Source: an uncultured Christensenellaceae bacterium (GTDB lineage Bacteria; Bacillota_A; Clostridia; Christensenellales; UBA3700). From it: a stretch of 20,299 bases of DNA. Position numbers and translations under genes: made by a program. Positions 20 to 1,214 of the stretch are shown piece after piece; the stretch's first letter is position 1, and every line of letters starts with the position of its first letter. The notes under the pieces are model-generated. The model had not been told where the DNA came from. It ran no database searches and saw only the letters and a list, made by a program, of their open reading frames with translations. Location of the stretch: contig CALWKT010000079.1 of the NCBI GenBank assembly GCA_944381335.1, positions 1-20,299 of the forward strand, written 5' to 3'.

Positions 20-508
20 ATGAAAAAAAGACTTGTGGTGACGGTTGCGTCGGTATGCGTTCTTTTGGCAGTCCTTACCGCGTTTGCCGCATGCGACGGA
101 GACAAACTTTTCGAATCCTCCTGGGAAGCGGCTTTCATATGCAACGCGCAGGGAGAAATAATCGCCCGGGGAGAGGATTATGCCTATAACGAAAATGCCG
201 GCGTTGCTACGGTGACCTGTACGATATCCGCAGGAGGAGAGATCTCTCTCGTCTGGGCTGAAGGAAAAAAGACCCTTGACGGTCAAATGACAGAGGTAAG
301 CGAAGGCGCGGACAAATCAGTCAGATATTCGATCGCGTTTTCAGACGGTTCAACCGGCACCGCGACCTATCTTGCGAAAAAGGACTCCGTTTACCCTTTC
401 GATACCGATAAGGACGACGGCTTCGACCTGCCGGAGAGCTACGAACTGACTTTGAAGGTAGGAGAAGAATATACGCTTTATTTCGTCAGGGTCGCTCAGA
501 TAAAGTGA
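20..508 (+). CDS. Small predicted lipoprotein, function unknown
   Basis: This 162-residue protein starts with a classic lipoprotein signal: a basic N-terminus (MKKR), a hydrophobic stretch at residues 5-20, and a lipobox-like FAAC with the acceptor cysteine at residue 25. The mature part is acidic and soluble, so it is probably tethered to the outer face of the membrane. AAGGAG at 3-8 serves as the ribosome binding site, about 11 nt before the ATG. The mature domain has alternating polar and hydrophobic residues, suggesting a small beta-rich fold, and ends in a segment resembling strand repeats of surface proteins (residues 138-160). I do not recognise a named family. Its promoter lies left of the window. 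Downstream, a hairpin (527-555, no T-run) and the terminator at 626-654 close it off. Confidence is good for a real exported lipoprotein, nil for a specific role. Confidence 0.8.
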   Translation: MKKRLVVTVASVCVLLAVLTAFAACDGDKLFESSWEAAFICNAQGEIIARGEDYAYNENAGVATVTCTISAGGEISLVWAEGKKTLDGQMTEVSEGADKSVRYSIAFSDGSTGTATYLAKKDSVYPFDTDKDDGFDLPESYELTLKVGEEYTLYFVRVAQIK

Positions 509-625: not shown

Positions 626-654
626 AAAACCGATACGAAAAGGGTATCGGTTTT
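626..654. terminator. Convergent intrinsic terminator between the lipoprotein and Xre genes
   Basis: AAAACCGATAC (626-636) and GTATCGGTTTT (644-654) form a perfect 11-bp stem with a 7-nt loop. On the minus strand the stem runs into a T-tract, so it mainly ends the Xre-type gene, whose stop codon overlaps the outer stem. On the plus strand TTTT also follows the stem, so it can serve the lipoprotein gene. Confidence 0.8.
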
Positions 655-853
655 ATCCGTTTATGAGATCTTCAAGGCTTATGCCGAAGATCGCCCCGAG
701 TTTTCTGAGCATTTCAATGCTCGGTTCGGTTCTCCCTTGTTCCCAGTTGGCATAACAACTTTCGACAACGCCGAGATTGTCGGCAACTTGTTTTTGAGTT
801 AAGGAACAGGATTTTCTGATCTCTCTTAAATTCCTGCAAAAAATTTTGTCCAT
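653..853 (-). CDS. Xre/Cro-type helix-turn-helix regulator
   Basis: A 66-residue protein that is essentially one HTH_3 domain. LTQKQVADNLGV (18-29) and the following SCYANWEQGRTEPSIEML (32-49) are the hallmark helix 2-turn-helix 3 and the NWEQGRTxPS turn of Xre/Cro/CI regulators. It has no effector or protease domain and should bind DNA as a dimer in the cytoplasm. The start at 853 has no good Shine-Dalgarno. A TAAAAT box on the minus strand at 869-874 would give a leader of only about 9 nt. Two 17-bp palindromes at 888-904 and 908-924 sit immediately upstream, between this gene and a divergent forward promoter, the usual arrangement for an autoregulating phage-type repressor. GACAAA half-site-like words also lie over its own start region (845-850 and 858-863, minus strand). 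No integrase, toxin or phage gene is visible beside it. Confidence 0.85.
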   Translation of the reverse strand: MDKIFCRNLREIRKSCSLTQKQVADNLGVVESCYANWEQGRTEPSIEMLRKLGAIFGISLEDLING

Positions 854-887
854 ATAATTTGTCCGTTCATTTTAATATTAAAACAAA

Positions 888-904
888 CTAGACAAAATGT
901 CTTG
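888..904. promoter_or_regulatory. Predicted operator O1 for the Xre-type regulator
   Basis: CTAGACAAAATGTCTTG is a 17-bp imperfect palindrome (two mismatched pairs). It sits upstream of the regulator gene, near the position expected for that gene's -35 box, and shares the CTAGACAA half-site with the palindrome at 908-924. The two begin exactly 20 bp apart, two helical turns. Assignment to the neighbouring regulator is inference from position. Confidence 0.6.
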
Positions 905-930
905 ACACTAGACAATTTATCTAGTAAAAT
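902..930 (+). promoter_or_regulatory. Strong forward promoter with operator O2 in its spacer
   Basis: TTGACA (902-907), a 17-bp spacer and TAAAAT (925-930) form a near-consensus sigma-A promoter pointing away from the Xre-type gene. The spacer (908-924) is itself a 17-bp palindrome, CTAGACAATTTATCTAG, with one mismatched pair. A dimer bound there would cover the space between -35 and -10 and block RNA polymerase. Predicted transcription start is about 937. Confidence 0.75.
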
Positions 931-936
931 AAGTTC

Positions 937-1097
937 GAAAATGAGTAAAGATATAAAAAATAACCGGTAGTATATAGAAACAAGTGGTTAACTGCTGGTA
1001 ATAAACAAAATTTGCATAAATGTGACTTTCTCTGCGTTTATTATACGTAAACGCGCTTTTTCTAAAAGGTACGGCGCTCTCCGGCGCCGTACTTTTT
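937..1097 (+). ncRNA. Candidate small RNA or micropeptide transcript under Xre-type control
   Basis: Starting about 7 nt after the TAAAAT box, a transcript of about 160 nt would end at the hairpin at 1064-1097. The only ORF near the start is ATG at 941, a 9-codon peptide (MSKDIKNNR, stop at 968-970), about 4 nt from the predicted RNA start and with no Shine-Dalgarno. Three stems are visible: ACCGGTAG with CTGCTGGT (963-970/992-999, two G-U pairs), GCGTTTA with TAAACGC (1034-1040/1048-1054, perfect), and the 14-bp terminator stem. I do not recognise a known RNA family. Alternatives are the 5' remnant of a decayed gene, or a leaderless micropeptide message. A real transcript seems likely; its nature is open. 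Confidence 0.5.
1064..1097 (+). terminator. Intrinsic terminator of the small transcript
   Basis: AAAAGGTACGGCGC (1064-1077) pairs with GCGCCGTACTTTTT (1084-1097) over 14 positions with one G-U pair and a 6-nt loop, ending in a T-run. The GC-rich core and T-run make this a textbook forward terminator. A second hairpin just before it (1034-1054) is also followed by a T-run at 1057-1061, giving a double terminator. Confidence 0.8.
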
Positions 1098-1214
1098 AAT
1101 TTCGATATAAAAATTCTCAAAATTTTCAACATTGCGTTTGTAGATTAACATACGGAATAGCGGATTGAACATTCGCTTTCAAACGGGACAAGTCACCTTG
1201 ACTAAGATAGCGAA

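Follow-up and report, generated by a model that had tools for sequence, protein, structure and literature searches.

The small Xre-type repressor gene of the window (the whole 20,299-nucleotide stretch of DNA that was analysed) and the double-operator promoter beside it probably form a self-contained, autoregulated switch, which serves as a socket for exchanged envelope cargo and which in one lineage, that of the window, carries an RNA. According to this reading, the 66-aa Xre protein would bind operator O1, lying over the abutting −35 elements of two divergent promoters, and operator O2, lying in the spacer of the rightward one, and would keep the strong rightward promoter off while setting its own level. 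The rightward promoter would be the only evident target of Xre. Unrelated, mostly membrane or secreted genes appear to have been exchanged at this promoter across relatives, and the window lineage would produce from it an RNA of about 125-160 nt, the conserved pyrimidine-rich core of which may act through its sequence; trans-acting regulation is its most likely role. The parts of the system are ordinary; the unusual aspect is the fixed control set against the turnover of cargo, together with the RNA output.

Architecture and conservation of the switch

The xre gene occupies positions 653..853 on the reverse strand. Its product, described in the original prediction as a 66-residue Xre/Cro regulator, matches Pfam HTH_3 with 51.7 bits against a curated cut-off of 23, which places it among the Cro/C1-type helix-turn-helix (Xre) regulators. 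The two 17-bp palindromes expected between this gene and a divergent promoter were also found: O1 (CTAGACAAAATGTCTTG) at 888..904, with six of eight palindromic pairs by hand count, and O2 (CTAGACAATTTATCTAG) at 908..924, with seven of eight, their centres being 20 bp apart. The rightward promoter on the forward strand consists of TTGACA (902..907) and TAAAAT (925..930) separated by 17 nt and agrees with the consensus at 11 of 12 positions, so that its predicted near-consensus character is borne out, and O2 does fill the whole −35/−10 spacer. From the spacing, transcription is expected to start near position 937. The putative leftward promoter, that of xre, would have its −35 element inside O1 (898-903), sharing two bases (902-903) with the rightward −35, and its −10 element, TAATAT, 17 nt away at 875..880 on the reverse strand. 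O1, which overlaps the −35 elements of both promoters, would block both of them, and O2 would block the rightward one; the locus may accordingly be described as an autoregulated divergent switch. At the other end of xre, a terminator-like hairpin of 11 pairs (626..654, reverse strand) lies between it and a convergent lipoprotein-like gene (20..508, forward strand; lipobox recognised by eye). This syntenic partner has a match at E ≤ 0.001 in 8 of 46 family genomes and adjoins xre in G006, G007, G009, G010 and G013; its product matched no family in Pfam, NCBIfam, PHROG or PADLOC.

The layout recurs across relatives. A scan of genome contigs for Xre gave 90 relatives, of which 80 (62-83% identity) were kept, making 81 loci together with the window; close Xre proteins (65-83% identity) occur in 14 of 99 relative genomes. 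The relatives come nearly all from uncultured Clostridia, many of them from animal guts according to record titles, and Pumilibacter intestinalis is the single cultured strain among them. O2 stands directly before a −10 element in 69 of the 81 loci. Within these 69, the spacer is 17 nt in 65 loci and 18 nt in four, the −35 element is TTGACA in 59, O1 fits its consensus in 65, and by sequence layout the operators overlap both divergent promoters in 65. The leftward arrangement is kept as well: AAGAYA lies within O1 as −35 element in 67 of 69 loci, the best −10, TAAAAT, is found 17 nt from it in 30 loci and 18 nt in six, and this TAAAAT-like −10 ends near the xre start codon. The strict O2 layout is absent from 12 of the 81 loci, including G010, where O2 has 16 nt, and G009, where it is degenerate. 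In two loci with distant Xre relatives, L034 and L040, the order O1, −35, O2 is kept and the operator words differ (TACCC... and TAGCT...), suggesting that regulator and operator change together.

Xre seems to have a single target, its own locus, because the strict O2 pattern is nearly unique in each genome. Of 99 relative genomes, 12 have this pattern: 11 of them carry a single site, located at xre, and the twelfth, G054, carries two, both inside coding genes. A control with the reversed pattern gave a match in one of the 99 genomes. The regulator itself is likewise uniform, as 76 of 81 Xre proteins share the recognition-helix stretch VVESCYANWEQGRTEP without any change. Cysteine 33 is present in 81 of 81 loci and cysteine 6 in 80; Xre has no sensor domain, and since C33 is invariant and C6 nearly so, an effect of redox state on the protein is worth testing.

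Cargo exchanged at the rightward promoter

The genes following the promoter were called with a simple ORF picker at the 80 loci of the relatives. A called ORF was obtained in 59 loci, nine have an accepted promoter but yielded no ORF call in the next 400 nt, and 12 lack an accepted promoter, the criterion applied here (68 of 80 loci) being different from that of the O2 plus −10 count (69 of 81). Among the nine promoter-only loci, L106, L115 and L119 contain ORFs without a ribosome site, as judged by eye, and L091 and L092 run off the contig. Six called ORFs that were weak, truncated, masked or doubtful (L055, L064, L098, L110, L123 and L130) were dropped, which left 53. The original supposition that no longer intact gene follows the promoter holds for the three nearest RNA-bearing species of the genus, but not for the wider relatives, 53 of 80 of which were called with protein cargo.

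The 53 cargo proteins fall into 27 blastp clusters, the largest of which comprise 12 zinc-ribbon/DUF4190-like proteins and nine members including several SHOCT or PH-like membrane proteins. Zinc ribbons were recognised with Pfam in 10 of the 53, SHOCT in nine, DUF4190 in five and BspA-type leucine-rich repeats in three. A hydrophobic 19-mer is present in 39 of 53 cargo proteins and in 121 of 316 background genes (those encoding 100 aa or more on three contigs of the genus), the two sets being unmatched for length. Exchange is also visible at the syntenic position of the window's locus, where four species have the RNA and G007 has a lipoprotein gene. In G001 the same position holds two zinc-ribbon membrane genes, similar (E 6e-21 and 2e-17) to L114, a cargo of other genera. 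In G012, a close sister of G006, the lipoprotein gene, xre and the RNA are all absent, the cassette missing as a unit beside tRNA genes. Moreover, a second Xre type of 85-87 aa (L014/L018) with palindromes of its own stands divergent to a lipoprotein gene in G039 and to a gene for a zinc-ribbon protein in G043, at a locus that adjoins seemingly the same neighbour gene, to judge from its first residues. From these comparisons the promoter is best understood as a socket in which genes, for the most part membrane or secreted, can be exchanged. As a separate observation, the promoter of L080 (G077) is followed by a gene for a Cys-rich peptide of 66 aa and then by another gene, which we take to be a radical-SAM enzyme; this locus is a possible modified-peptide cluster.

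The predicted RNA output and competing readings

In the window, the promoter leads to a predicted short non-coding transcript (937..1098, forward strand), which would end at about 1062 or at 1098. The RNA 937-1097 has a calculated folding energy of −44.6 kcal/mol (z −3.8), a value reached by none of 200 shuffles. The three stems that had been predicted within about 160 nt, two of them followed by T-runs, were located near 963-999, 1033-1055 (followed by CTTTTTCT) and 1063-1098 (ending in TTTTT). The last of these is a strong intrinsic terminator (1063..1098, forward strand) with a consensus helix of 11 pairs across four species. An RNA model, R1, searched on 396 genomes, scored 88-98 bits in G006, G013 and G010, which carry the homologues, and at most 36 bits elsewhere; it had matches at E ≤ 0.01 in 105 of the 396 genomes, those of up to 36 bits being taken as ordinary terminators without individual checking. 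Over 937-1097 there is no Rfam match at gathering score, the only such features of the window being an FMN riboswitch and two tRNAs. An ECF transporter gene at 2124-2987, probably for riboflavin, stands under the riboswitch (RF00050, 91.4 bits). Between the RNA and an intact tRNA-Pro, positions 1209-1810 are occupied by tRNA-Pro-derived repeats, made of anticodon-arm and T-arm fragments with inserts between them, and like repeats fill the same interval in G001, G006, G007, G009, G010, G012 and G013. Of the outputs originally envisaged, the comparison favours the small RNA, as a predicted short terminated transcript without a conserved ORF in the genus; for the window lineage a non-coding RNA of roughly 125-160 nt is predicted.

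It may be asked whether this transcript has a function at all. If the cargo was lost and the promoter now reads leftover terminators, the RNA would be a functionless remnant of an emptied socket. The protein cargo of most relatives and the lipoprotein gene of G007 at the same locus are in line with such a loss, as is the 5′ part of the RNA, which contains the first stem as well as the 9-codon ORF and cannot be aligned between the four species. The outputs of L110 and L120 also seem, by eye, to stop early without an ORF, a terminator having been marked by the scan in L120 only. However, a sequence-conserved core is present at 1024..1065 (forward strand), and its 34-nt part, 1032-1065, differs from the window at no position in G013, at one in G006 and at two in G010 (94-100% identity), whereas the four-fold sites of the nearby xre and lipoprotein genes are only 22-53% identical in pairwise comparison. 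Moreover, O2, the promoter and the RNA core have been lost together in G009, which still has the xre ORF and a site resembling O1. These observations make a functionless remnant a rather unlikely explanation. A tree of five neighbouring proteins groups the window with G009 (0.96) and G006 with G012 (1.00), its other branches being weak. This distribution is best explained by an RNA that is old in the genus and has disappeared from G009 and G012, transfer being a possible alternative.

A phage- or defence-derived immunity cassette was also considered. Xre would then be a former CI/Cro-type repressor, and its cargo would be envelope proteins resembling those of superinfection exclusion, expressed once infection or entry titrates the repressor. 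The types of cargo do resemble those found beside phage repressors: among the 53 proteins, phrog_888 is matched in nine, phrog_2546 in nine and SHOCT in nine. The accessible part of PMC3952083 describes an Ltp lipoprotein gene in a lysogeny module beside the repressor, and a further point in favour is the absence of the whole cassette beside tRNA genes in G012. Nevertheless, both phrogs are of unknown function, and PADLOC matches to the cargo are single and mostly to helix-turn-helix domains. Reading of the ORFs in the window revealed no phage genes, there was no match to phage or plasmid DNA, and a single weak relative (41%) was found in viral contigs. An output of non-coding RNA also fits poorly with this explanation, which is judged unlikely for the locus; a minimal immunity module, as had been suggested, may still describe the class of cargo taken together.

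The conserved core could, alternatively, be a DNA element, such as a protein-binding or recombination site. It contains a near-palindrome, GCGTTTA-TTATACG-TAAACGC, and its helix shows no upkeep by compensation at the level of RNA, the sequence being conserved instead. The arms of the palindrome are, however, broken in G006 and G010, and the core always lies between promoter and terminator; it was not found elsewhere in 46 family genomes at up to three mismatches, nor in viral contigs. A role as DNA is therefore regarded as quite improbable. A leaderless micropeptide, or any other tiny peptide from 937-1097, is the least credible output: the ATG at 941 stands 4 nt from the expected start and a reading frame that crosses the core gives TFSAFIIRKRAFSK, in which the interspecies changes are mostly mild (by eye), but the 9-codon ORF (MSKDIKNNR, 941..970, forward strand) is missing in all three other RNA-bearing species and in G006 and G013 the core frame, judged by eye, lacks a start codon (ATG, GTG or TTG).

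The preferred reading, a regulatory RNA at an exchangeable position, leaves the question of what is conserved in it. The expectation that the stems would be kept while the sequence varies is not supported: compensated pairs, two in number, occur only in the terminator helix, along with two unpaired cells. In the core hairpin, two of nine pairs are broken, once each in two of the four species, and none is compensated; locally, this hairpin fails to form in G010 and has lost strength in G006. The covariation score was reached by a shuffle control in 47 of 500 cases with only four sequences, and it is therefore weak evidence for structure. The lack of a conserved ORF, together with the weakening or loss of the core hairpin in two of the four species, suggests that the constraint acts on the sequence of the RNA. 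The mRNA of the adjoining lipoprotein gene is not favoured as a target, its duplex energies ranking 5 of 16, 138 of 143, 21 of 76 and 75 of 124. Tests of other genes, covering the window and parts of three genomes, did not yield a target. Among 143 genes, the core formed its strongest duplex with the start region of G006:C10:6251-6994, presumably a SurE-like gene (−34.1 kcal/mol; mean −15.0, sd 4.5). A search with 13-mers of the core in six genomes, with 15-28 matches per genome, was uninformative, and no overlapping opposite-strand gene, such as the toxin ORF to which the RNA of a type I toxin-antitoxin system would be antisense, was recognised at the RNA by reading. Against the favoured reading stand the fact that most relatives have a gene instead of an RNA after the promoter, and the occurrence of the RNA in four species only, with its proposed function drawn from one conserved 34-nt stretch. 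Furthermore, among the RNA-bearing species, G013 has neither O1 nor a recognisable −35 element and O2 of G010 has 16 nt, which indicates that tight control was not kept throughout.

Related systems and significance

A limited search of the open literature found no paper describing this locus; several known systems resemble it in part. A close likeness is to the Cro/CI-type divergent switches of phages and integrative and conjugative elements, which share the small HTH_3 repressor, the paired operators over divergent promoters and the layout for autoregulation. Accordingly, the Xre profile matched the solved structure of the ICEBs1 regulator (7t8i, E 6e-10) and also that of DdrO (6rnz). The present locus differs from such switches in the absence of genes for phage or conjugation functions, in its single operator pair, in the exchange of cargo and, in one lineage, in the RNA output; with no phage DNA match and one weak relative in viral contigs, it does not class as a phage lysogeny module. 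The score against the RstR family (NF041951), 49.7 bits, is below the NCBIfam cut-off of 80. Controller proteins of restriction-modification systems are also Xre proteins of about 66-80 aa with two adjacent operators near their own gene and a concentration-set switch. The C-boxes of these controllers are, in the part of PMC5282649 consulted, inverted repeats with a GACT core. In contrast, the operator word here is CTAGAYAAnnTTRTCTAG, the PADLOC Control_protein model gives only 27.3 bits, no C-box with a GACT/AGTC core is present, and no restriction-modification genes were recognised by reading the translations of the window ORFs.

RptR-type repressors of defence islands, as presented in the accessible portion of PMC12255303, are comparable: they too are small and repress their own promoter, their sites are conserved in many genomes, and the modules that follow vary. 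In that portion, RptR recognises TAGCTA repeats of 6 bp and is not presented as belonging to this Xre family, and what lies downstream here is envelope-type genes or an RNA. Finally, the Ltp-type superinfection-exclusion lipoproteins provide, within the same part of PMC3952083, another case of a small lipoprotein gene near a repressor, but the lipoprotein of the window has no family match and there is no prophage.

Beyond the single locus, a tentative generalisation, at present more doubtful than probable, is that gut Clostridia of the Christensenellales type use plug-in sockets, in which a fixed repressor and a fixed double-operator promoter stand at sites prone to exchange, in this case next to tRNA genes. 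What is swapped in under this one control would be genes for modified peptides, unrelated surface proteins or a regulatory RNA, and the switch, not the cargo, would be conserved. If this were true, these bacteria would possess a dedicated system that diversifies one repressed, inducible cell-surface trait, which the window lineage would have turned into an RNA regulator. A regulator and operator pair kept nearly fixed in many genera, with repeatedly replaced targets, would invert the picture of conserved genes under drifting control, and the locus would offer a compact case of protein output replaced by RNA output at one promoter. One 17-bp word would then give a handle on a large number of unstudied repressed envelope genes in common gut Clostridia, and the signal that may lift repression by a sensor-less repressor would become directly testable.
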